Origin: a virus
Virus record (IMG/VR): IMGVR_UViG_3300035228_000644
Location: 1-62,018 of that record
Length of the DNA: 62,018 nt
Direction: 5' to 3' (one strand)
Shown here piece by piece: positions 976 through 12,065 of the stretch. Below the pieces are notes generated by a model. That model was given only the letters and a program-made list of their open reading frames with translations, was not told the DNA's origin and made no database searches. Both the position numbers and the translations under genes were made by a program. Within the stretch, counting starts at the first letter, position 1; the number at the start of each line of letters is the position of its first letter.

Positions 976-1376
976 CGTTTCTTACCACCTTTATTCAATT
1001 TGTCTTTAATAACCATAAGTTGGTTGTCGGTAAGAATCCTGAGTGCTTGCATTGCTTTCTCGGTTGAATAACCATAGAATTCTTTGACAAGTTCAATATC
1101 CGTCACCTTTTCTTTTTTACCCCAAGGAGAAAATCTCTTACGGGACCTGACGGTATTTATAAAGAAATCGTACTGCATTTTTTTATCCAGGTTTGGATAC
1201 TGATTCATTTCATTAGAAATCATCAAAGTATCCATATGATGGGATAAACATTTATTGATAATATATGGAGGATACTTTGCTTCCCAAGCAGGATCCCCAT
1301 CTTCCATCAGATTCTTTTTAGTAAGATTGATAGAATTTAAATAATCCTTAAGAGGATACCGTTCATCATACGACAT
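972..1376 (-). CDS. 62: clamp loader small subunit gp62
   Basis: 134 aa. In T4, one gp62 joins four gp44 ATPases to load the gp45 clamp onto primer-template DNA. The pattern YPLKDYLNSIN near the N-terminus, the central CLSHHMDT and NQYPNLDKKMQYDF, and the Lys-rich tail fit the cyanophage gp62 type, which is shorter than T4 gp62 (about 187 aa). It sits just upstream of regA with an ATGA overlap. Unlike T4, it does not directly follow gp44: a DNA adenine methylase gene lies between them and overlaps its start by 11 bases. Identification rests on sequence pattern and synteny. Confidence 0.88.
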   Translation of the reverse strand: MSYDERYPLKDYLNSINLTKKNLMEDGDPAWEAKYPPYIINKCLSHHMDTLMISNEMNQYPNLDKKMQYDFFINTVRSRKRFSPWGKKEKVTDIELVKEFYGYSTEKAMQALRILTDNQLMVIKDKLNKGGKKR

Positions 1377-2193
1377 AGTTAAGTAGTAGCAGTTCTTTAC
1401 GTTGTTGCTGGTCTTTCATATACTCACCAACTGATCGCATGGTATAAGTATGATCGTACTCATGTGGTTTCCAATCAATGAATCGAGACTTGATTAGATT
1501 GGAAGAGTTGTATGATACCATCTGGTCACAAGCATGTCTATCACATGCAAAGAAAAACTCATCATGATCAAACCCCTTATGCATCCCACCTTTCTTACCA
1601 TAGAGATTGGACTTAATCTCATAAGGTGGATCTAGATACACAAACGATTCCTTCTTATTAGTTAGAAGTTCTTCGTATGACAGATTAGTAATTCTCCAGT
1701 CTTGGATGAGTTCTCCATAGGCGGGGAGTTTATCAATCCCTCGCATACTAAAGTTTGAGTCTGACGCCTGTTTGCTGAAGGACGAGGACTCAGTGAGACC
1801 AGAGAAAGAGCACTTATTAACAATATAAAAACACACAGCAGCAGATAGGTTGGATGTTGAATCATCGTTTAGTTTCTCCTTAGCGTCTAGAAATAATTGT
1901 TTTGCTGATACTGGTTCTGGATGACTTTGCTTAAGTTGAACCAACTGATTACGAATCTCATCTGCATCGTACTGCAGTTCTTTCCAAAAATTATATAATG
2001 GTTCATACAAATCATTCACCCAGATATCCAGGTGAGGATACATCTGAGTGATATAGAGAGCAACAGAACCTCCACCAACGAAGGGTTCCCGAAACTCGGT
2101 GTAGTCTTTGAATGATGGAAAGAACTGTGCCATCTTTTTGGTGGCACGAGACTTACCACCAGGATAACGAAGAGGAGTCTTTAATGATGTCAT
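1366..2193 (-). CDS. dam: DNA N6-adenine methyltransferase (Dam/D12 class)
   Basis: 275 aa from the ATG at 2193, which overlaps the gp44 stop by ATGA; an upstream in-frame start at 2229 would add 12 residues inside gp44 and looks unlikely. Class D12 enzymes transfer a methyl group from S-adenosylmethionine to adenine N6. Visible motifs are RYPGGK at residues 9-14 with FREPFVGGGSV after it (cofactor site) and the catalytic DPPY at 188-191. GATC is the usual Dam target but specificity cannot be read here. The gene sits between the two clamp-loader subunit genes and overlaps both (4 bases with 44, 11 bases with 62). Its likely role is protecting phage DNA from restriction or marking replicated DNA. 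Confidence 0.92.
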   Translation of the reverse strand: MTSLKTPLRYPGGKSRATKKMAQFFPSFKDYTEFREPFVGGGSVALYITQMYPHLDIWVNDLYEPLYNFWKELQYDADEIRNQLVQLKQSHPEPVSAKQLFLDAKEKLNDDSTSNLSAAVCFYIVNKCSFSGLTESSSFSKQASDSNFSMRGIDKLPAYGELIQDWRITNLSYEELLTNKKESFVYLDPPYEIKSNLYGKKGGMHKGFDHDEFFFACDRHACDQMVSYNSSNLIKSRFIDWKPHEYDHTYTMRSVGEYMKDQQQRKELLLLNYVV

Positions 2194-3131
2194 TTGAATT
2201 GACACTCTAACATAATTTGAGTAAGACAAGCAAGAAGATTAATCTCCTGATCCACAGCAAATGCAGACTTGTATTGATACTCAGCAATGATTAGAACAGC
2301 AGCAGCAACACTAGGACCATCCATCACACCAGATAGATTGTCATAGAGTTTACGCATAATAGATGTTGGGTCAGCATCTAGATTTTGTGTCACCCACTTC
2401 TTAACATCATTAAACTTCTTGTTCTTTAATGCTGTCACAAGAGTATCTACATTAGCATCACCTAACGTCGCCAGAATGCCAGTGTCGATAACCCCCGTGC
2501 TTGCATATCGCTGCAGTTCGTTAATGGTTCTTCGGAAGTCTGGAAAGTATTTTTGGATGACTTCTGCAACAACTCTCGGAGCGAAGGTGACCTCCTCGCG
2601 CCTGAGGATATCCTGACACCTTGTAAAAAACGCACCAGCAAGTTCTTGCTTTGTCTGTCCACGAACGTTAAACTCTACGACTGTTGTTCTGCTATGTAGC
2701 GGTTCAATAATCTTGTTTTTGAAGTTACAAGTGAATATGAACCTACAGTTTTTTTGGAACTCTTCGATACTTGCACGAAGGAGTAATTGAACATCTGCGG
2801 TTGTATTGTCTGCCTCATCAATGATAAGAACTTTGTGACGAGCAGAAGCAGTGAGAGACACAGTAGCAGCAAAGTTCTTTGCCTGATTGCGTACAGTATC
2901 CAGGAATCTACCTTCATCCGATCCATTGATAACATAGTAGTCTGCTCCAAGTTCGTTACAAAGTGCCTTGGCGATGGTGGTCTTACCAACACCAGCAGTT
3001 CCAGATAAGAGGAGATTAGGGATCTCACCCTGGTCAATGAAACTCTGGAAGGTTTGCTTCACATTAGCAGGAAGAATGCATTCCTCAACAGTCTGAGGAC
3101 GATACTTCTCTACCCATAAAAAATCATTCAT
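2190..3131 (-). CDS. 44: clamp loader large subunit gp44 (AAA+ ATPase)
   Basis: 313 aa. It is the ATPase of the clamp loader that opens and places the gp45 ring. The N-terminus WVEKYRPQ is the classic RFC/DnaX opening. Walker A is GTAGVGKT at about residues 44-51, Walker B LIIDEAD near residue 105, followed by a sensor-1 FTCNF and an arginine-finger-region SRT. Length equals T4 gp44 (about 319 aa). The start ATG shares one base with the gp45 stop, and its own stop overlaps the methylase start by ATGA, so translation is probably coupled through the operon 45-44-dam-62-regA. Confidence 0.97.
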   Translation of the reverse strand: MNDFLWVEKYRPQTVEECILPANVKQTFQSFIDQGEIPNLLLSGTAGVGKTTIAKALCNELGADYYVINGSDEGRFLDTVRNQAKNFAATVSLTASARHKVLIIDEADNTTADVQLLLRASIEEFQKNCRFIFTCNFKNKIIEPLHSRTTVVEFNVRGQTKQELAGAFFTRCQDILRREEVTFAPRVVAEVIQKYFPDFRRTINELQRYASTGVIDTGILATLGDANVDTLVTALKNKKFNDVKKWVTQNLDADPTSIMRKLYDNLSGVMDGPSVAAAVLIIAEYQYKSAFAVDQEINLLACLTQIMLECQFK

Positions 3132-3790
3132 TAGTTGTTAGGTTCGAGAGCAATAAAGTATTTGATGCCATTGCCCTGGAATAGAGCAACATTATGCTTA
3201 CTAATAGTTACATGATAATCATCCAACAATAGTTTTAGATTCTCAACTTTAAAACAATAACAGAATTCATTATCAGTTTCACCAACTTCAACAGAGTAAC
3301 TGTTAGAAGTATCATTCTTTTTATCAGTCACACAAAGATTCATAGTTCCACCTGTTCCATACAAACATAGATCGGGTAGTTGATAAACTAGTGCTGCTTT
3401 TTTAAGTTGATCAAGTTGGAGTCGATTGAGTTGAAATGTTACATCAGAAGAAGGAATATTAATTTCCTTCTCAGGAGGTTGAGTGATAATATCAGGGTCG
3501 GCATAAAAGAAACGAGTCTTAGACTTACCACGCCTATCACTCACAGTAACATAATTACTCTGTGAGGTATCAAGTTTTGGTGTATCAAATAGATTCAAAC
3601 CACCAAGAAATACACCCAAGTCATAGATAGAAATTTGATTCTCAAATTGTTCTTCAACATCAGCAATAGCAAGAATGTTTTTGTTGATGCTGAGAGTAGA
3701 AACTTGATTGCCAGGTTTGATGACAATAGACTTGTTAATAGAACAGAAGTTCTTTAAGACTTCAATGGTGGATTTGGAAATTACTGTCAT
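3131..3790 (-). CDS. 45: sliding clamp gp45
   Basis: 219 aa, close to T4 gp45 (228 aa). The trimeric ring tethers the DNA polymerase and, in T4, also tracks DNA to activate late promoters with gp55 and gp33. The sequence has the two-domain clamp pattern: VLKNFCSINKSIVIKPG at the N-terminus, an inter-domain region around LNRLQLDQLKKAA, and a C-terminal KYFIALEP. The start overlaps the stop of the DUF3310 gene by ATGA. Because many genes in this window carry T4-type late promoters, this clamp probably has the same transcriptional role here (inference). Confidence 0.95.
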   Translation of the reverse strand: MTVISKSTIEVLKNFCSINKSIVIKPGNQVSTLSINKNILAIADVEEQFENQISIYDLGVFLGGLNLFDTPKLDTSQSNYVTVSDRRGKSKTRFFYADPDIITQPPEKEINIPSSDVTFQLNRLQLDQLKKAALVYQLPDLCLYGTGGTMNLCVTDKKNDTSNSYSVEVGETDNEFCYCFKVENLKLLLDDYHVTISKHNVALFQGNGIKYFIALEPNN

Positions 3791-4071
3791 TGAGGGTATA
3801 CTTCTTTAGGGGGTGCAGATTTGTCAGAGAAATGGAGGAGGAGCAATCCGTAGTGTAGGATCTTAATGATATCACGACGGGCAGTGCCTTTACGGTCATA
3901 GCGAGAAGCATACTTTAGAATGTTACTTCTACAGAATGCCTCAGCATCACCACAGGATTCAATCAGATCTAATGTTTGAATCTGATCGTTACCAGCAGAA
4001 TAGTGTTGTCCGTAGGTCCCTGTGATATAATCGCGCAACTCCTTGAGAAGCGCATCTTCATTGTATTTCAT
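3787..4071 (-). CDS. DUF3310 family protein
   Basis: 94 aa. It contains the DUF3310 pattern: Gln-His-Tyr near residue 22, then IQTLDLIESCGDAEAFCRSN, then KYASRYDRKGT and a closing ILHYGLLLL. DUF3310 proteins occur in many phages, have sometimes been described as nucleotide-kinase-like, and lack an agreed function. The gene is locked between cobS-like and gp45 by ATGA overlaps at both ends, so it is translated with the replication operon; a role linked to nucleotide supply or replication is plausible but inferred from context only. Confidence 0.85.
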   Translation of the reverse strand: MKYNEDALLKELRDYITGTYGQHYSAGNDQIQTLDLIESCGDAEAFCRSNILKYASRYDRKGTARRDIIKILHYGLLLLHFSDKSAPPKEVYPQ

Positions 4072-5147
4072 AATAAGATGTTTTCTTCATCCTCATTATA
4101 TTCCGAATCTTCTCCAGCGTCAACCTTAGTGTAGAGATCTAGGAAAGATTGTTTTGTATCGTCATCAAAACGATTCACACACTTAGTGATAGCGTCAAGA
4201 CGATCACCAAAAATATCATATGCCTGCACAATATGGACCAGACGACGTGTCGTGATTACTTCATCAACACCACCGTCAAAGAAGGTCTTACGAATCACAC
4301 CTGCCCACTTTACAAGATTCTCTGCAAAAACTGGATCACAACCAACATTCAACAGGATCTTAGTTTCTACAATAGCACTGGGATACTCCTGCTCAAAAGT
4401 TACAGGGAATCGTTCGAGGAATGCCTCATTGAGAATATTGGTTCCAACAAAGCGACCGTCATCGCTACCTTTACCTTTAGTATTTGCAGTTGCAATAACA
4501 TTGAATCCGTCCTTAGGAGTTACATACTTACCAATTTTTTTCAGAAACACACCCTTGCCTTCAAGGATGGATTGTAAACAGAGGATTTTATTTGAAGCAA
4601 GGTCAACTTCATCAAGTAGCAAGACTGCTCCTCTTTCAAGTGCCTCCACGACAGGTCCGTTATGCCAAACAGTTGACCCATTGTCAAGACGGAAACCACC
4701 AATAAGATCATCCTCATCAGTTTCAATAGTAATATTTACCCGAATCAACTCTCGTTTTGTTGCAGCACAAGTTTGCTCAACTGACATGGTTTTACCATTG
4801 CCAGAAAGACCTGTGATGAAGATAGGATAAAACTTACGGGACTGAATAATCTTGCGAACAGATGAAAAATTACCAAACTGGACATAGGAATCATCTTTTT
4901 CAGGAATATAGTTTACAGCAGATGTGACAGAGGGTGCTTCATATGCTCGCTCAATCTCTTGAGCAGTCAAGTTCCACTTACCTGTTCCTGATTTATAAGA
5001 CTTCAAACGCTTGCAAGCAGTAGCGTAGGACAGATTGAGTTGACTTGCTGCCTCGCGAATATTCTGACACCCGACTTCAACACCGAAATTATCGATGAGA
5101 TATTGAACCATTTGTTCAGTAGTAACAGGATTTGGAGCGAAGGGCAT
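4068..5147 (-). CDS. cobS: MoxR/CobS-type AAA+ ATPase with an N-terminal helix-turn-helix
   Basis: 359 aa. Residues about 10-55 look like a helix-turn-helix (IREAASQLNLSYATACKRLK). The AAA+ module follows: Walker A GLSGNGKT at 113-120, the CobS/MoxR signature DDLIGG and GFRLDNGSTVWHNGPV around 147-166, Walker B LLLDEVD at 176-182, sensor IATANTKG and an arginine-finger region. In bacteria CobS works with CobT in cobaltochelatase; MoxR relatives work with VWA proteins to remodel other targets. A CobT-like partner lies upstream (5875-7995) but under a separate promoter, beyond a terminator. I see no CobN or cobalamin enzyme, so the chelatase role is uncertain. SD AAGGAAC precedes the ATG. Confidence 0.9.
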   Translation of the reverse strand: MPFAPNPVTTEQMVQYLIDNFGVEVGCQNIREAASQLNLSYATACKRLKSYKSGTGKWNLTAQEIERAYEAPSVTSAVNYIPEKDDSYVQFGNFSSVRKIIQSRKFYPIFITGLSGNGKTMSVEQTCAATKRELIRVNITIETDEDDLIGGFRLDNGSTVWHNGPVVEALERGAVLLLDEVDLASNKILCLQSILEGKGVFLKKIGKYVTPKDGFNVIATANTKGKGSDDGRFVGTNILNEAFLERFPVTFEQEYPSAIVETKILLNVGCDPVFAENLVKWAGVIRKTFFDGGVDEVITTRRLVHIVQAYDIFGDRLDAITKCVNRFDDDTKQSFLDLYTKVDAGEDSEYNEDEENILL

Positions 5148-5162
5148 GAGTTCCTTTGTTGA

Positions 5163-5179
5163 CTATACAGATAGTATAG
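5163..5179. promoter_or_regulatory. inverted repeat over the cobS-like promoter
   Basis: CTATAC-N5-GTATAG, a perfect 6-base palindrome, covers the -10 and probable transcription start. It could be an operator, or simply reflect AT-rich -10-like sequence on both strands. Confidence 0.35.
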
Positions 5180-5181
5180 CA
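5166..5181 (-). promoter_or_regulatory. extended -10 promoter for the cobS-like/replication operon
   Basis: Minus-strand TGCTATACT (5181-5173) is an extended -10 element. It starts 26 bases before the cobS-like ATG and directly follows a terminator, as expected for a fresh transcription start. No -35 match is visible because the hairpin occupies that position. The same TGNTATAMT form precedes the CobT-like gene and gp55. Confidence 0.5.
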
Positions 5182-5205
5182 GAAAACCCCCCCGAACGGG
5201 AGGGT
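5182..5205 (-). terminator. rho-independent terminator
   Basis: On the minus strand ACCCTCCC-GTTC-GGGGGGGT forms an 8-bp stem (one G-U pair, loop 5194-5197) followed by TTTTCT. It ends the transcript carrying the 170-aa gene and separates it from the cobS-like operon. Confidence 0.85.
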
Positions 5206-5225
5206 CTTGGACAGTTATTTAGTTG

Positions 5226-5738
5226 TCACACCCACTCAGGTTTGTGATTTGGAATACGCAGATAGTTAGATGACACCCATGGTTTAGATGCAATGTACAT
5301 CTTGTAAGCAGTGAAGATGTCAATGCTGGTGTCATACTTATATTCGTCAGGTCCTGCAAAGACAAAAGGAGTATGATCACTCAACTTTGCAGAAGGAATG
5401 ATCTCGTCAGCAGCAAGGAGAGTCCTATAACAGGTATGGTTTTTCCCATACCGAGTATAATACTCGTCACATAATGCAACGCCATGCTCAAGCAACCATC
5501 GAGAGTTTGCTACAGTCTCATTTGCCCACTTGGTGCAAGGGTGATTACGAAACGCTCCCTTGTCCGTAGCATAGGGTGTTCCATCTTTCTTAGGCAGTGT
5601 GCCATAACCATGCCCCCACTTGTCTGAGGCGACTATAGCAAGCATCTGGCAGGTCTCTAGAGGCATCTTAACGATGTGCTTGTCAGGCAGAACTTCTGCT
5701 GACTTCCATGGAGACTCGTCAGTGACGAAGATGTTCAT
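5226..5738 (-). CDS. conserved phage protein of unknown function (DKHxxKMxLET motif)
   Basis: 170 aa. The N-terminus carries a recognisable phage-wide pattern: NIFVTDESP, then LPDKHIVKMPLETCQML, then HPCTKWANET, then RYGK with a Cys/His-rich neighbourhood. I know this pattern from hypothetical proteins of many tailed phages and some bacteria but cannot assign an enzyme. Conserved Asp, Lys-His, Glu and His-Pro-Cys residues suggest an active or metal site. Its ATG overlaps the stop of a 47-aa gene by ATGA, so it is the last member of the CobT-like transcript and ends 20 bases before a terminator. Confidence 0.82.
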   Translation of the reverse strand: MNIFVTDESPWKSAEVLPDKHIVKMPLETCQMLAIVASDKWGHGYGTLPKKDGTPYATDKGAFRNHPCTKWANETVANSRWLLEHGVALCDEYYTRYGKNHTCYRTLLAADEIIPSAKLSDHTPFVFAGPDEYKYDTSIDIFTAYKMYIASKPWVSSNYLRIPNHKPEWV

Positions 5739-5878
5739 TCAAATACTGCCGTTACTCCCATGATAGTTGCTCCAGGGTTTCGTGCCAAGGCAACCTTCTT
5801 AGCATCGTCATAGTCTGTAGCAATAACAATTTCGTCAAAAACTGTTCCTGCCTTGAATAGTTGTACTTTACACTTCAT
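5735..5878 (-). CDS. 47-aa conserved-looking small protein coupled to the CobT-like gene
   Basis: A short frame, MKCKVQLFKAGTVF...MGVTAVFE, linked at both ends by ATGA overlaps: its ATG (5878-5876) overlaps the CobT-like stop, and its TGA (5737-5735) overlaps the next ATG. The sequence is soluble, with a beta-strand-like start and an Asp-rich helix (ATDYDDAKKVALARNP), resembling small phage proteins that modify strand or RNA binding, but no family is recognised. Double translational coupling is the main evidence that it is real. Confidence 0.75.
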   Translation of the reverse strand: MKCKVQLFKAGTVFDEIVIATDYDDAKKVALARNPGATIMGVTAVFE

Positions 5879-7995
5879 GCGATTTGCTCAATAAATGCGT
5901 TAAGGATGGTCTTGTTTGTCATTTTAGAACCCATGTGTTTTTTAAATGCACGAGCGAGTTCTGCTTTGGTGGCAACTTCGGACTTTTGTTTTACCTCAAG
6001 ATCTAAAGTTCCTAGTCCAGTATTTTTATCGGGCATATAGAATGCCTCAGTAAATCCTGCACTTTCTTTAATGGAAGCAAAACGTTCCTTTCTCCACTGC
6101 TTATCGATTGCATCAAATTTATCATATGCAATTTCTCTAATCAGTTTAGATAAATCACCTTTACTACAAAGACGAATACCAACCCAATTATAATCAGTAA
6201 TCTCACGATAGAATGATACTATCTCTTTTGTAGTTTCATATGGATGACTTGAGATTCTACGGGTATATCCAGTTTCAGGATCGCGAAGAAAAAATACTTT
6301 ACCCCGAGTGTGGCATAGGTATTGATACCGATATTCTCCAGCGCGATAGTAATGATCTTCAGCAAACTTATGAATGTAACTCATAGGATTTGCTTCACCA
6401 TCAGTCAAACAAATAACATTTACTTTACTAACTCTTTCAATCTTTTTAAGATTAGAAACAATTTTACGAGTGCAATATACTGCTTCGGCAAGAGGAGTTC
6501 CGCCAAGAGTATACTCTGAAAAATAATTTAGACGCCATCCATTCATAGCAAACACCTGAGTATATACTAATTGCATAGACTTCTCAAGAGATTGTCTATT
6601 TTGACGAGATGAAAAGAATTCAAGCAGACGAAAATCTGAAGAAATTCCTAACTCATTTTCATTCTGCATGATATTAAGATCATCATTCTGAATATGATAT
6701 CCATGTCCAGATTGGAAAGCATATACTCGAAATGGAATTCCAGATTTTTTACAGAACCAGATGAGATTATAAGTTTGTTTCAGGGTATCAAGCAATTGAT
6801 TACCCATGGAACCAGACCAATCAAGATACATTATAAGACCATGATTTTTACCTTCAGGAACTACAGTGACTCTTTTAAAGATGTCATCATTATATTTGTA
6901 AGTGTGTAGTTTGTTGGTATCAAGAACACCTGTTTTAGAAGTTGCTGAACGACGGTACTCTTCAGCAGATTTTTTCATGTCAAACTGCTTACACAAATAA
7001 TTGACAGTCTTCTGTGTATCTTTTTTAAATGAATTGTAATTATCAACAGCATACTGAACATACTCTCCCCAAGTGCGTTCGGGATCATAAAAATGTCCTT
7101 GGAGTTTTTCTTGAATTGTTTTAAAAGGAACAATTAAATCTTCAACTTTAGGATTAGGAATTGAGAGATATACCCATTCCTTAGCATTGTCATCTACAAG
7201 AGTCTCAAGTGCTTCTGCAAGTGCATCATTAGTTACACATTTGGTTTCATCAGCGTCACCCCCATAAGAAGGTGTATCTAAATCTGTATCACTCTGCTCA
7301 ATATCTTCTCTCCATTCACTCTCACGCCTTGCTGCCTCTTCAAGCATCTCTTCGTGAGTCATCTCCTCATAGTCATCACTATCAACAGGGTTTATTTCTT
7401 CCTCACGATCTGCTTGTGCTTGACCATCTTCTGTTGATGGCATCATCATCTCTTCTTTATGATCCTGTTTTTCAGAACAATATTCATACAATTCTTTAGA
7501 AAGATTAACTACCTCCCTAAAGGTTTTAGTTTGATCTGCACGACGGACCCATACCATCTCATCATCAGAGAATGGAATACTAGGATTACCTTTGAAATAA
7601 AGATTGATACGATCAATCAATGAGAGTGTTGTGGGATCTTCATGTTTTACACCAAAGAAGTCCTCATTCCACAACTCTTTATATCCCTCAAAAAAAGATT
7701 TACGGAGACCAGGATAGGTTACCTTCATCATACGTTCGATACGAGCATCCTCCAGAACATTCACAAATGCCTTTGAGGCACCACTGTAATCCTCATTAGG
7801 AGTATACAGAGCATGTCCTACCTCATGCCCCACCAGAAGGTCATAAACGGTATTAGAGGCAGTCTTCCAGATAGGGAGGATGAGCAGACGTTTATCAACA
7901 TCAAAGCACGCGGTACTAACCTTACGATGCTCTACAGTCAGGTTCTCTGTAGCGAGTAGTTTGGCAAGAGTGCCCTTGACTTCCTGAGTGTTCAT
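5875..7995 (-). CDS. cobT: CobT-like VWA protein with an HExxH site
   Basis: 706 aa. The N-terminal region holds HEVGH at residues 57-61 and a downstream LEDARIE near 81-87, together a zinc-peptidase-like H-E-x-x-H plus Glu arrangement. An acidic linker (about 165-260, rich in Asp and Glu) follows, then a von Willebrand A domain with MIDAS motif DWSGSM at 392-397 and CLTDGEAN near 530. Acidic linker plus C-terminal VWA is the CobT layout; CobT and relatives such as ViaA act with MoxR/CobS AAA+ ATPases. The partner ATPase is encoded downstream at 4068-5147. Whether the HExxH is proteolytically active cannot be told. Transcription probably starts at the extended -10 promoter within 8012-8027. 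Confidence 0.88.
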   Translation of the reverse strand: MNTQEVKGTLAKLLATENLTVEHRKVSTACFDVDKRLLILPIWKTASNTVYDLLVGHEVGHALYTPNEDYSGASKAFVNVLEDARIERMMKVTYPGLRKSFFEGYKELWNEDFFGVKHEDPTTLSLIDRINLYFKGNPSIPFSDDEMVWVRRADQTKTFREVVNLSKELYEYCSEKQDHKEEMMMPSTEDGQAQADREEEINPVDSDDYEEMTHEEMLEEAARRESEWREDIEQSDTDLDTPSYGGDADETKCVTNDALAEALETLVDDNAKEWVYLSIPNPKVEDLIVPFKTIQEKLQGHFYDPERTWGEYVQYAVDNYNSFKKDTQKTVNYLCKQFDMKKSAEEYRRSATSKTGVLDTNKLHTYKYNDDIFKRVTVVPEGKNHGLIMYLDWSGSMGNQLLDTLKQTYNLIWFCKKSGIPFRVYAFQSGHGYHIQNDDLNIMQNENELGISSDFRLLEFFSSRQNRQSLEKSMQLVYTQVFAMNGWRLNYFSEYTLGGTPLAEAVYCTRKIVSNLKKIERVSKVNVICLTDGEANPMSYIHKFAEDHYYRAGEYRYQYLCHTRGKVFFLRDPETGYTRRISSHPYETTKEIVSFYREITDYNWVGIRLCSKGDLSKLIREIAYDKFDAIDKQWRKERFASIKESAGFTEAFYMPDKNTGLGTLDLEVKQKSEVATKAELARAFKKHMGSKMTNKTILNAFIEQIA

Positions 7996-8233: not shown

Positions 8234-8466
8234 ACAAGCATTCCTTTCTCTTGTAGGAAATGTAATGTGTCATGCATGTTGCCAACGTGCTTATAACCTA
8301 AAGAGACCTGAGGATAAGTTGCTCCTTCACCAAATTCATTTTCAAAAGAACGTTGAGTAAAGTGCTTATTAAGTTTATACTCTAAAAACTCTCCACCAAG
8401 AGAATCTAATAGTGCCACCATACGCTCGCACTCTTGACTATCGTTAGAATAAATTACTGCTTGCAT
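8230..8466 (-). CDS. glutaredoxin-like protein lacking the first active-site Cys
   Basis: 78 aa from the ATG at 8466 (a TTG at 8481 is in frame but not needed). Glutaredoxins reduce disulfides using glutathione through a CPYC site. Here the first strand AVIYSNDSQECERM aligns SQEC with CPYC, so the N-terminal Cys is Ser and only the second Cys remains. The cis-Pro segment YPQVSLGYKHVGNM, which contacts glutathione, is intact. This variant may bind glutathione without dithiol activity, or serve as a scaffold. The gene overlaps a 49-aa Cys-rich ORF upstream and the membrane protein gene downstream. Confidence 0.82.
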   Translation of the reverse strand: MQAVIYSNDSQECERMVALLDSLGGEFLEYKLNKHFTQRSFENEFGEGATYPQVSLGYKHVGNMHDTLHFLQEKGMLV

Positions 8467-8603
8467 TTGCTTTTTAACCAACAGGGTTTACATAATGAAT
8501 TTTTATATTTATTTTTGGATGAAACATAGCATCCGACTTGAGGACATTGATTTGCTGGTATCATTTTACCGCACCCAATACACTCAGTTTCCCACATCTT
8601 CAT
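8454..8603 (-). CDS. 49-aa four-Cys (zinc-ribbon-like) protein
   Basis: The frame MKMWETECIGCGKMIP...LCKPCWLKSKCKQ has two CxxC knuckles (CIGC at residues 8-11, CKPC at 38-41) about 26 residues apart plus extra Cys, typical of small zinc ribbons. The ATG (8603-8601) overlaps the stop of the preceding 43-aa gene by ATGA, and its TAA lies 13 bases inside the glutaredoxin-like gene. Such phage proteins often bind nucleic acid or host RNA polymerase, but no specific role is supported. Confidence 0.72.
   Translation of the reverse strand: MKMWETECIGCGKMIPANQCPQVGCYVSSKNKYKNSLCKPCWLKSKCKQ
8506..8513 (-). promoter_or_regulatory. possible late promoter AATAAATA
   Basis: AATAAATA on the minus strand, 40 bases before the glutaredoxin-like ATG and inside the 49-aa gene. 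It fits the T4 late consensus, but a chance match in AT-rich sequence is possible. Confidence 0.35.
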
Positions 8604-8731
8604 AACAATACTTCATTGGGATTGAGATTTTTTACAAATTGCACAGGATCTTTTTCAGACTTGTGTACCCAATGATAGCGCATACACTCGAATATAGGAT
8701 CCCATGTGGGGACACAAACATAATCAGTCAC
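8600..8731 (-). CDS. 43-aa hypothetical protein
   Basis: GTG start at 8731 with a strong GGAGG site 5 bases upstream, located inside the last codons of the 104-aa gene. The product (MTDYVCVPTWDPIF...NPNEVLL) contains Trp, Cys and His residues but no known domain. Its TGA overlaps the ATG of the four-Cys gene. A strong SD and coupling at both ends make it credible despite its size. Confidence 0.68.
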   Translation of the reverse strand: MTDYVCVPTWDPIFECMRYHWVHKSEKDPVQFVKNLNPNEVLL

Positions 8732-9038
8732 GTTGCCTCCAGTCATCAGGTTTGTCTCTTCCGAACCATTCTTTTATATCGTCAGCATCAGCAAATCCCG
8801 TTTTGTGATTGGATGGGTCGGGATCACCTAGTCCCATCCTATTCAGAAAATCGTCGGTACTACCTTCTTCAATTTCTTGAGAAGATTGTCTTCTTGCTTT
8901 TTGCAACCAATCTCTGGCAAGTGTATGAGACTTAGCAAGTTTCTCTGCCCATATCATATCGTCAAGTTTTACCTCTTCACCATTTGCAATACATTTACAA
9001 ATGAATTCTAAGCGCAGTCTGTACTGTGTAGAAAGCAA
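8724..9038 (-). CDS. hypothetical protein, alpha-helical and charged
   Basis: 104 aa from TTG at 9038, chosen because AGGAG lies 8 bases upstream; a TTG at 9053 would add five residues but lacks a site. The first 50 residues (RLRLEFICKCIANGEEV, then DDMIWAEKLAKSHTLARDWLQKA) look helical, followed by an acidic, Asp-rich tail ending in DDWRQRD. I have seen similar proteins next to gp46 in cyanophages but know no function. A late-type promoter lies upstream at 9061-9068, inside the end of gp46. Confidence 0.75.
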   Translation of the reverse strand: MLSTQYRLRLEFICKCIANGEEVKLDDMIWAEKLAKSHTLARDWLQKARRQSSQEIEEGSTDDFLNRMGLGDPDPSNHKTGFADADDIKEWFGRDKPDDWRQRD

Positions 9039-9060
9039 AAGTTTTCTCCTCAACCAAGTT

Positions 9061-9068
9061 TATTTAGG
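9061..9068 (-). promoter_or_regulatory. late promoter candidate CCTAAATA
   Basis: CCTAAATA on the minus strand, 23 bases before the TTG of the 104-aa gene and overlapping the gp46 stop region. It matches the CTAAATA form seen before gp19 and other structural genes. Confidence 0.45.
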
Positions 9069-10785
9069 ACTCATCCGACATCTTTGAAAAATCATTAATC
9101 TTTTCAAACTTCAGTGTTCGCAAGAACTTATCAACAAGAATGTCACCTTTATGTGAGATAACAAAGACATTAGTATCATTTCCGAGACTACGAAGAATCT
9201 GAAGAAGTTCACCTGTACCTGACGCATCAAGAGAACTATCAAAAACTTCATCAAGAATCAAAAGATTTGTAGCAACACTATTCTTCATCCTAGCAACTTC
9301 ACGCCAAGTAAACAATAATGCCAAATCAATTTTTTGCTTCTCACCTTCAGAAAATGATGAGTATGAGAACTCATCTCTGAAACGACTCTTAATGACTTCA
9401 TTAAACTCTTCATCCAATGTAAAGTTGACAAAGAAATCCATTGACTGAAGATACTTATTAATCAATTGATTAAAGATAGGGACATACTTTTTGATAATCT
9501 GACTTTTAATACCAGAGTCTTTCAACAAAGTTCCAACTACTTGAAACTCATCTAAACATTGATTGACTTCAGAACAATTTTTTTCTGTATCATCATATTC
9601 TTTTTTAAATGCAAATAAAATTTCTTCTTCCTGATCGATGTTTGGTCTGCTTTGTTGTAGATTGGTAATTTCTTTTGTGATTTCAAGATTCTCCATCTCA
9701 AGACGAACAATTTCTCGTTCAACTGCAGTAGCATCACTACGAACTTCATACAACATTGCAGAAGTTTCTTCCATCTTACTAACAATATCTACTGCTTCAG
9801 TAATATCTTTAGTGAATTCTTCAATCTCAACAGAAAGAGTTTTACCAGATTTTATTAGATCGGTAACTTGATTTTTTTTAAATGCGCTACTAATATCTTG
9901 CGTACATGTAGGACAAACATCATGACCTTTGAAGAACTTCAAATCTTTAGCAATTAATTTTAGTTCTGATTTTTTATCTGATTGACTTTGACGTAATCTT
10001 TGAATAAACGTTTTTTGATTTGTAGAATCTTCTACCTGTTCTTTAAGAATAACAATCTCATCCTTCTTTTTTTTATGCTGAACACCCAATTCAACAACAC
10101 GATTAGCATTTTTATTATATCTACTACGTTTTTCTTCTTGACGATTCTCATTCACTTCAAGTAAAGAACCAATCAATTTTTTCTGACCTTCGAGTTTCTC
10201 TTTAGACAACCGAAGCATATGACCACAATCATTACTTTGACTTTGTGCTGTACGAATTCTATCTTTCAATAAAGAATTCATGTTTGAAAATATATTAATA
10301 TCCAACAAGTCTTCTATCACCTCTCTCCTATGACCAGCAAGCAATTGCATAAAAGGAACAAATGTGCTAGATCCAAGAATGACAACTTGAGTAAATGATT
10401 TATAATTAAGTTTTAATACCGACTGCTCAAGATATTTTTGCGTATCTTTAGCGGCAGCATCTTGATCAACAAGTTTATTATTTTTATACAGTTCAAATGC
10501 ATTTGGTTTAATACTCCTAAACACACGGTATTCATCTCTACCAATAGAAAAACAAACTTCAACTTTAGTTCCCTTTTCATTAATAGAATTTACTAATTGA
10601 TTTTTGTTAATTTTGCGAAATGCTTTTCCAAACAAAGCAAAACACAGAGCATCCAACATAGTGGATTTCCCTGCGCCATTAGAACCTACAATAAGTGTTG
10701 ATGAAGACTCGCAAAAATCAATCTCAGTCCACTGGTCTCCTGTTGAAAGAAAGTTTTTCCAGCGAATAGTCTCAAATGTAATCAT
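9064..10785 (-). CDS. 46: recombination endonuclease subunit gp46 (SbcC/Rad50-like)
   Basis: 573 aa, close to T4 gp46 (560 aa). With gp47 it resects DNA ends for recombination-dependent replication. Walker A GSNGAGKS is at residues 34-41; a coiled-coil middle contains the zinc hook CPTC near residue 290; the ABC signature FSEGEKQKIDLAL and Walker B LLILDEVFD lie near the C-terminus. The start overlaps the stop of the DUF3110-like gene by ATGA, and gp47 lies further upstream, the same 47-46 arrangement as T4 with one small gene between. Confidence 0.96.
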   Translation of the reverse strand: MITFETIRWKNFLSTGDQWTEIDFCESSSTLIVGSNGAGKSTMLDALCFALFGKAFRKINKNQLVNSINEKGTKVEVCFSIGRDEYRVFRSIKPNAFELYKNNKLVDQDAAAKDTQKYLEQSVLKLNYKSFTQVVILGSSTFVPFMQLLAGHRREVIEDLLDINIFSNMNSLLKDRIRTAQSQSNDCGHMLRLSKEKLEGQKKLIGSLLEVNENRQEEKRSRYNKNANRVVELGVQHKKKKDEIVILKEQVEDSTNQKTFIQRLRQSQSDKKSELKLIAKDLKFFKGHDVCPTCTQDISSAFKKNQVTDLIKSGKTLSVEIEEFTKDITEAVDIVSKMEETSAMLYEVRSDATAVEREIVRLEMENLEITKEITNLQQSRPNIDQEEEILFAFKKEYDDTEKNCSEVNQCLDEFQVVGTLLKDSGIKSQIIKKYVPIFNQLINKYLQSMDFFVNFTLDEEFNEVIKSRFRDEFSYSSFSEGEKQKIDLALLFTWREVARMKNSVATNLLILDEVFDSSLDASGTGELLQILRSLGNDTNVFVISHKGDILVDKFLRTLKFEKINDFSKMSDES

Positions 10786-11030: not shown

Positions 11031-12065
11031 TTAAATTTCCGATGCTTCCATATACAGAGACCTCATTACATTTTTCACATTTGATTTATTAACTTTGAGG
11101 TCAATATCATCTATGTAGTTATCTAACAATGTCATTGTATCTTCGGTTTCCAGAACCTCAGAACCAGAATCAAGTTCAACACTTAGATCCTCAATAATTT
11201 TGAGGTCTCCAAGACCCATGTCTTGTAGTTGACTTACAGCATAATCAAACTTAGCATAGTCACCTTTGTTTTCTACAATTAATTTAACGTAAGATCCTTT
11301 AAGGTCTTCTTCGTTAGGTAGGGTAACCCCGTTATTATAATAGAGTTTATGGAAAATGTCAAATGGATTTTTATAGAAAGTAGTTTTTAAAGTTTCTGTG
11401 TCAAATACATGGAACCCTCGCTTACATCCATAGTCATTCCAATATAGTTGATAAGGATTACCAAGATAATTTACATTCTTCTTGGTTGATTTCATATGAT
11501 AGTGTCCCGAGAATACTTTTTTAAACTTAGAAAAGGCATTCGAGTCCATACCATGTTGCATTACATGACCAGGATGAGCTTCAAAACCATTTAGTTCTAG
11601 ATGACCCATGCATACTTTTGCTTCGGTACTTCCTACTTTTTCCAGAACTTCTGTACGATTCTCATCGCAAATCCAAGGGAGAAGGAGTATAGGAAGATTG
11701 TCATACACAAGAGTGGTAGGGCTAGTGATGACGTTGATGTTGTTGTATTCTCCAAGTAACTCACTTGGGGCGTTAACTCGTAGAGTATTTTTGTAATAAA
11801 TATCATGATTTCCTACAAGCATATCCATACTGACACCTCTTTCCTGGAGAGGTGTAAACCACATCTCCTTTGCTGCTTCAAGAGACATAAAGTTGATAGA
11901 ACGTCTCTTGTCAAAGGTATCGCCAAGACAGATAATTTTAGATATCTTATGCGAATCAATAAATGGAAGAACTACTTCCCCATAGAATTTTTTATAATGA
12001 TCAATAAAGGATTGATTGTCATTGCGAACACCAAAGTGTTGATCGGTTATTAATAAAAGTTTCAT
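11031..12065 (-). CDS. 47: recombination endonuclease subunit gp47 (SbcD/Mre11-like)
   Basis: 344 aa, T4 gp47 size (339 aa). It supplies the Mn-dependent nuclease of the gp46/47 complex. The five phosphoesterase motifs are readable: ITDQHFG at the N-terminus, CLGDTFDKR, VGNHD, CMGHLEL and FSGHYH, which together form the two-metal site. The ATG overlaps the cupin gene stop by ATGA. Identification is secure. Confidence 0.96.
   Translation of the reverse strand: MKLLLITDQHFGVRNDNQSFIDHYKKFYGEVVLPFIDSHKISKIICLGDTFDKRRSINFMSLEAAKEMWFTPLQERGVSMDMLVGNHDIYYKNTLRVNAPSELLGEYNNINVITSPTTLVYDNLPILLLPWICDENRTEVLEKVGSTEAKVCMGHLELNGFEAHPGHVMQHGMDSNAFSKFKKVFSGHYHMKSTKKNVNYLGNPYQLYWNDYGCKRGFHVFDTETLKTTFYKNPFDIFHKLYYNNGVTLPNEEDLKGSYVKLIVENKGDYAKFDYAVSQLQDMGLGDLKIIEDLSVELDSGSEVLETEDTMTLLDNYIDDIDLKVNKSNVKNVMRSLYMEASEI

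Follow-up and report, generated by a model that had tools for sequence, protein, structure and literature searches.

The DNA analysed here, referred to as the window, is the whole of IMG/VR virus record IMGVR_UViG_3300035228_000644 (positions 1 to 62,018, 62,018 nucleotides), a 62-kb fragment of a T4-like cyanophage whose closest kin among the relatives listed are Synechococcus phages ACG-2014b (~83% nucleotide identity over 12 kb). Its minus strand encodes a cobS-like ATPase and a cobT-like VWA protein. The gene pair is already known, both as the cyanophage core genes cobS (one of 25 core genes) and "peptidase" (PMC3037559) and as the CobST of Liu et al. 2021 (PMC8651126). We consider it probable, if only modestly so, that the pair is an ATP-driven remodelling or proteolytic machine working on complexes of replication or recombination, rather than an enzyme for the insertion of cobalt into corrins. 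The genes and motifs that bear on this reading, each within an open reading frame (ORF), are the following:

4068 to 5147, minus strand: cobS-like MoxR/AAA_5 ATPase of 359 amino acids (aa) (PF07728, E 6.8e-20; phrog_249, 1e-146)
5875 to 7995, minus strand: cobT-like protein of 706 aa (phrog_459 "peptidase", 1062 bits)
7813 to 7827, minus strand: HEVGH, residues 57-61 of the cobT-like protein, a putative zinc-site motif (H57, E58 and H61 invariant)
7735 to 7752, minus strand: EDARIE, residues 82-87, with E82 as putative third metal ligand (E82, D83 and R85 invariant)
6805 to 6822, minus strand: MIDAS motif DWSGSM, residues 392-397 (D392, S394, S396 and M397 invariant)

A preliminary description of this DNA had reported both ORFs, Walker A and B motifs in the cobS-like protein, and HEVGH, EDARIE and DWSGSM in the cobT-like protein; all are present, the ORFs at the positions that it gave.

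The predicted structure of the cobT-like protein (model predicted local distance difference test (pLDDT) score 81.7) comprises a putative N-terminal zincin-like domain, an acidic, mostly low-confidence linker (~188-245), a long helix (310-354) and a C-terminal VWA domain. HEVGH lies within a predicted helix (48-64) and E82 within another (75-93), at a distance of 21 residues from the second histidine, a spacing that resembles that of gluzincins. Across 95 viral homologues with identity down to 26%, 40 of the 706 columns are invariant, including D532 and all of the motif residues listed above, and T500 is nearly so; the random expectation for invariance of all six residues H57, E58, H61, E82, D83 and R85 is ~2e-8. 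EDxRI and DWSGSM served as search patterns in one viral scan that supplied many of the aligned rows, such that the invariance of EDxRI is partly selected for and the unbiased part is HExxH; this motif was in no search pattern of the viral scans, and its invariance is therefore not built in by selection. HExxH falls within the first 120 residues in 133 of 134 full-length viral CobT genes, and the exception (L049) is a called ORF with an N-terminal extension whose row among the 95 retains the motif intact.

By sequence and model, the protein has the marks of a VWA co-chaperone, namely a MIDAS DxSxS motif, the distal T/D residues and a gene beside a MoxR gene. Its conserved HExxH with a downstream acidic ligand also matches the sequence definition of a putative zincin metallopeptidase, and protease activity of the site is plausible. 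A different reading is that the pair is purely a chaperone, assembling or activating a complex or inserting a metal as do CbbQO, NorQD and Rea1, with HExxH as a structural element or metal carrier. The nearest folds fit this reading: those closest to the ATPase are CbbQ2 and NorQ, and those closest to the VWA domain are MDN1/Rea1-MIDAS and NorD (MDN1-MIDAS Z 15.3, NorD Z 14.5, Rea1-MIDAS Z 13.7). However, the HExxH glutamate, both histidines and E82 are all invariant, as is usual for a catalytic zincin, and we regard a pure chaperone as rather unlikely. Direct sequence searches of Pfam, NCBIfam and the PDB with the cobT-like protein returned nothing significant. Pseudoalteromonas phage vB_Psh_XG4 (L027:5869-9403) has its CobT and CobS in pieces across separate ORFs; as its record bears the label "unverified", sequencing error and insertions are both possible.

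The cobS-like protein is predicted to contain an N-terminal winged helix-turn-helix-like domain (~10-70) followed by an AAA+ core and lid (~78-345; AlphaFold2, pLDDT 82.6). Walker A (113-GLSGNGKT-120) and Walker B (176-LLLDE-180) are readily identified, and K119, D179, E180, N222, R246, R301 and R302 are invariant in the CobS alignment. The AAA_5 match, the Walker motifs, the sensor and arginine residues and the predicted fold identify a MoxR-type AAA+ ATPase. The core fold is closest to CbbQ2 (6l1q, Z 25.0) and NorQ (9qh9, Z 23.7; VIA-align), within a range of Z 20-25 for CbbQ/NorQ folds, and AAA modules of Midasin/Rea1 (MDN1) match at ~210 bits, summed over several modules.

The preliminary description had also proposed that a helix-turn-helix segment could target the ATPase to DNA or to a phage protein. 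A helix-turn-helix-like fold is predicted, with helices at 10-21, 27-36, 41-47 and 62-70 and beta strands at 52-54 and 57-59 (pLDDT 83-88); several Pfam helix-turn-helix families match residues 26-54 weakly, every one below its cut-off. DNA binding is not favoured: net charge over the whole stretch is 0 in the window, with a median of +1 over homologues, conservation is poor (0.46 vs 0.81 for the ATPase), and an Ochrobactrum relative lacks the domain.

One homologous CobS gene (L024:7381-10213) is interrupted at Walker B, between ILDE and CDLADA, by what reads from its motifs as a split intein, the N-part ending ...NSKHPFVVGDG... and the C-part starting ...NHTFVTSNGIVTHN. A separate 382-aa ORF (8333-9481), possibly a homing endonuclease, lies between the putative intein parts. 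A group I intron was considered for this gene, and Rfam gave no match.

The pair was named CobST by Liu et al. 2021, who found it widespread in tailed viruses, regarded "peptidase" as a wrong label for cobT and suggested that the pair hijacks host CobN (PMC8651126). According to this proposal, viral CobST replaces ChlI/ChlD or a missing CobST, works with host CobN and raises the cobalamin supply during infection. A cobalamin role had been suggested earlier, along with the observation that phage cobS was not found in hosts (PMC2984593), while a 2023 study states that whether the phage gene has a cobalamin function is not known (PMC9983427). Homology to genuine CobS is real (HHalign probability 99.2%; 109 bits to the solved cobaltochelatase CobS, vs 60 for CbbQ and 58 for NorQ). 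However, the phage CobS scores 56.8 bits against TIGR01650, about tenfold short of the cut-off of 558.55, and the phage CobT has no match to TIGR01651 (cut-off 759 bits), PF06213 or PF11775; a genuine pair (L225) reaches 558.0, right around the TIGR01650 cut-off, and 786 for TIGR01651.

The zinc site provides a further distinction. Both histidines are kept by the phages and missing in 32 of 32 genuine CobT proteins (alphaproteobacterial, found by PF06213, 29 with CobS in the same stretch), in which position 57 is A or S, position 61 is R, K, N or Q (mostly R/K), and E82 is mostly retained. Profile comparison of phage CobT with genuine CobT alone is not significant (HHalign, 12% probability). 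The phage N-domain does align with CobT-like proteins of mobile elements (99.7%, E 2e-25), which in turn align with genuine CobT over their full length (99.7%), and the link is thus indirect, since only profile comparison via the mobile-element homologues connects the two. In the CobS tree, phage (100/98), genuine (100/100) and mobile AAA (99/95) sequences form three separate supported groups; phage ATPases represented by a single row are unreliably placed because of their long branches. On the sequence features tested, the phage pair falls outside cobaltochelatase. The preliminary description would have given way to a simple cobalamin role if CobS had lacked a helix-turn-helix fold and clustered tightly with cobaltochelatase CobS; a helix-turn-helix-like fold is predicted, and phage CobS forms its own clade. 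Its view of the pair as a MoxR-VWA remodelling machine and not a simple cobalamin enzyme is supported by an HExxH that is conserved like an active site and missing in genuine CobT.

The distribution of CobN bears on the same question. As the preliminary description had noted, no CobN is encoded nearby: none was found in the window, which is a fragment, or in five complete related phage genomes, including those of Pelagibacter phages HTVC008M and Mosig, both of which carry the pair. The sequence of the 16S probe SAR11-152R picked two genomes, and the family around one of them is the group that we treat as SAR11, an assignment resting on this probe, on class and on genome sizes of 0.7-1.6 Mb. 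CobN was found in 0 of 99 genomes of this family, in line with the description of SAR11 as B12-auxotrophic (PMC9296465). SAR11 phages thus carry the pair although CobN is in neither those phages nor these genomes, and the host chelatase, which the preliminary description had offered as one target, is unlikely as a general target because SAR11 hosts appear to lack CobN.

Among picocyanobacteria the picture is more favourable to the cobalamin proposal. None of the 151 Prochlorococcus-family genomes has CobT (PF06213), and three picocyanobacterial genomes each carry two CobN-family genes, one of which we expect to be ChlH; CobN-family genes with no CobT would therefore leave a gap for phage CobST to fill. 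Against the proposal, part of the B12 story may rest on the shared gene name cobS, which a review describes as the last step of cobalamin synthesis (PMC2984593) and a metagenome paper applies to a different model, TIGR00317 (PMC4303638). Overall, we judge a role in cobalamin supply improbable.

The pairing of the two genes is consistent among phages. At a coverage of at least 80%, 457 phage records contain CobT and 459 contain CobS, and their tallies are equal by group (Synechococcus 365/365, Cyanophage 61/61, Prochlorococcus 24/24). In all 138 loci in which both genes were found they share a strand, with a median gap of 136 nucleotides. The 21 loci with no CobS within reach are nearly all at contig ends, and one (L152) carries CobS elsewhere in its genome. 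The surroundings recur as well: gp46 lies upstream of the pair in 81 of 90 testable loci, and 59 of 67 have gp45 or gp44 downstream of it. Phages S-CRM01 and S-CREM2 carry the pair away from the usual site, yet with the two genes still together. The insert between gp46 and the CobT-like gene varies by phage (oxygenases, peptide deformylase, HNH), and uncharacterised ORFs occupy it in HTVC008M (L025:3103-5813). On expression timing, the main text of some transcriptome papers makes no mention of cobS.

The corresponding neighbours in the window are:

11031 to 12065, minus strand: gp47-like (SbcD/Mre11) ORF, upstream neighbour (gp47 is in the same place in syn9 and P-SSM2)
9064 to 10785, minus strand: gp46 recombination nuclease subunit (SbcC/Rad50-like), upstream neighbour (PF02463, 1.7e-17)
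5735 to 5878, minus strand: ORF of 47 aa
5226 to 5738, minus strand: pyrimidine-dimer DNA glycosylase-like ORF (PF03013, 2.7e-14; phrog_624, 1.3e-83)
3131 to 3790, minus strand: gp45 sliding clamp, downstream neighbour (PF09116, 3.8e-13)
2190 to 3131, minus strand: gp44 clamp loader, downstream neighbour (PF21328, 1.7e-16; PF00004, 4.3e-17)
1366 to 2229, minus strand: D12 class adenine DNA methyltransferase, adjoining gp44

In order of transcription these genes run gp47-like, gp46, small ORFs, cobT-like, 47-aa ORF, glycosylase-like, cobS-like, a DUF3310 ORF, gp45, gp44 and D12 methyltransferase. The cobT-like and cobS-like ORFs are therefore not directly adjacent; the glycosylase-like repair gene between them is a neighbour whose membership of the system is putative only. 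A GC-rich terminator-like hairpin (CCCTCCCGTTCGGGGGG, followed by GTTTTC; window 5187-5204) lies just upstream of cobS and after the glycosylase-like gene, and could uncouple the expression of the two. In P-SSM2 the gene after the peptidase carries the annotation "DNA binding protein", and in T4 it is rpbA and 45.2, not the pair, that lie between genes 45 and 46.

Similar pairs occur well beyond cyanophages. A scan of cellular genomes recovered HExxH-EDxRIE-VWA proteins from Geobacter relatives, Methylobacter, Halomonas, Thioalkalivibrio and others, most of which match PF06213, and a MoxR gene is present in the available flank of 18 of 27. Relatives of the mobile CobT-like protein are found in 1,221 plasmid records; the window CobT itself matches nothing directly among the plasmids. 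The IncA/C plasmid pRA1 has the gene order AAA, unknown, bet, exo, DUF3150 and VWA, and Pfam tallies over 85 ORFs from the mobile-homologue loci include DUF3150 (11), YqaJ (6), RecT (5), RadC (2) and topoisomerase (2). DUF3150 (e.g. L219:10633-11907) often accompanies the mobile-element VWA gene, was not seen in annotated phage loci, and may be a third component of the mobile-element systems.

In Klebsiella, Vibrio, Microcystis and Gordonia phages, a CobS-like ATPase gene lies beside one for an HExxH VWA protein (HEVGH, HECYH, HETLH and HELCH), near genes for DNA polymerase III alpha, primase and polymerase, a RecA-family protein, and primase and DnaB. These partners were picked by their position beside the ATPase, and their HExxH motifs therefore constitute independent support. 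Staphylococcus phage 812 has a CobS-like ATPase, and both of the nearby proteins that were inspected lack HExxH; the ATPase can thus occur without an HExxH partner. The replication and recombination setting remarked on in the preliminary description accordingly recurs on unrelated mobile elements.

Conservation of the pair among phages of very different hosts would also suit a counter-defence or host-takeover protease whose target is a host protein rather than phage DNA complexes. Yet the pair is also found on the conjugative plasmid pRA1 beside bet/exo, it lies beside replication and recombination genes and not in variable islands, and the phage pair has no PADLOC match (mobile AAA proteins give only marginal mad8 matches). 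We consider such a protease very improbable; an anti-phage defence system was likewise set aside, given the lack of a PADLOC match for the phage pair.

Together, these results support well the view that the pair works like a MoxR-VWA machine. In such pairs, discussed for instance in PMC7159879, a peptide is bound by the VWA protein while conformational change is driven by the ring of the ATPase; a conserved HExxH + E domain on top of this suggests a protease powered by ATP, or a substrate-clipping remodeller, with a logic like that of AAA+ proteases. In the mechanism that we propose, the two proteins would associate in a physical complex in which the ATPase forms a ring and drives conformational change, while the CobT-like partner would bind the substrate via its VWA/MIDAS domain and present it to the N-terminal domain, a putative zinc-binding peptidase; the helix-turn-helix-like domain may have a role of its own. 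The machine would remodel, and probably clip, phage complexes for replication or recombination, or else proteins stuck on DNA, which the recurring neighbours make the most likely substrates, and gene neighbourhood suggests a target in the replisome. Each functional step of this mechanism is inferred from sequence, predicted structure, co-occurrence and gene order.

Several observations weigh against this interpretation. Neighbourhood is weak evidence of a target, and the S-CRM01 pair is located among tRNA genes. An intact HExxH may also serve a structural or regulatory purpose, and its presence in 25 of 25 proteins of the mobile-element set is not independent, because the selection patterns and filter included the motif. 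The zincin domain returned no solved structural match in whole-chain searches because the VWA domain filled their lists. By sequence profile, phage CobS lies nearer cobaltochelatase CobS than CbbQ or NorQ, and the picocyanobacterial CobN-family genes described above are in keeping with a cobalamin role.

More broadly, it is possible, though we hold it short of probable, that the pair represents a widespread unrecognised two-gene ATP-dependent metalloprotease or remodeller of mobile DNA serving replication and recombination, with cobaltochelatase CobT as a relative that lost the protease site. The distinction matters because cobS is counted among cyanophage auxiliary metabolic genes, and metagenome surveys take it as a sign of vitamin B12 production. 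If it instead belongs to a remodelling protease, the ecological inference about B12 would be wrong for an abundant core phage gene, phages and conjugative plasmids would be linked by one shared DNA-metabolism accessory, and a route from a protease-like ancestor to a chelatase subunit would be suggested.

Compared with known systems, the phage pair shares with cobaltochelatase CobS/CobT (TIGR01650/TIGR01651, PF06213/PF11775) a MoxR ATPase, a VWA partner with an acidic linker and detectable homology, direct for the ATPase and via mobile-element homologues for the CobT N-domain; it differs in having no CobN, in falling far below the equivalog cut-offs, in the extra helix-turn-helix-like N-terminal domain on the ATPase, and in keeping intact the HExxH that cobaltochelatase CobT has lost. 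CbbQ-CbbO and NorQ-NorD include the closest solved folds of the phage ATPase, and NorD is among the nearest to the VWA domain, but the phage CobS sequence is nearer CobS and the locus has no rubisco or NO-reductase context. Midasin/Rea1 (MDN1) resembles the pair in its MIDAS domain and AAA modules, although it is one giant protein and the phage genes are two, small and separate. The CobT-like VWA proteins of pRA1 and genomic islands share HExxH, EDxRIE, MIDAS, a MoxR partner and nearby RecT/Bet, YqaJ or exonuclease genes, and differ in their DUF3150 companion, an ATPase with a CbbQ_C lid and confident alignment to the phage protein in the N-domain only. What Liu et al. 2021 (PMC8651126) describe as viral CobST is this very gene pair under a different reading, and the evidence presented here favours the metallopeptidase-like label for its CobT.

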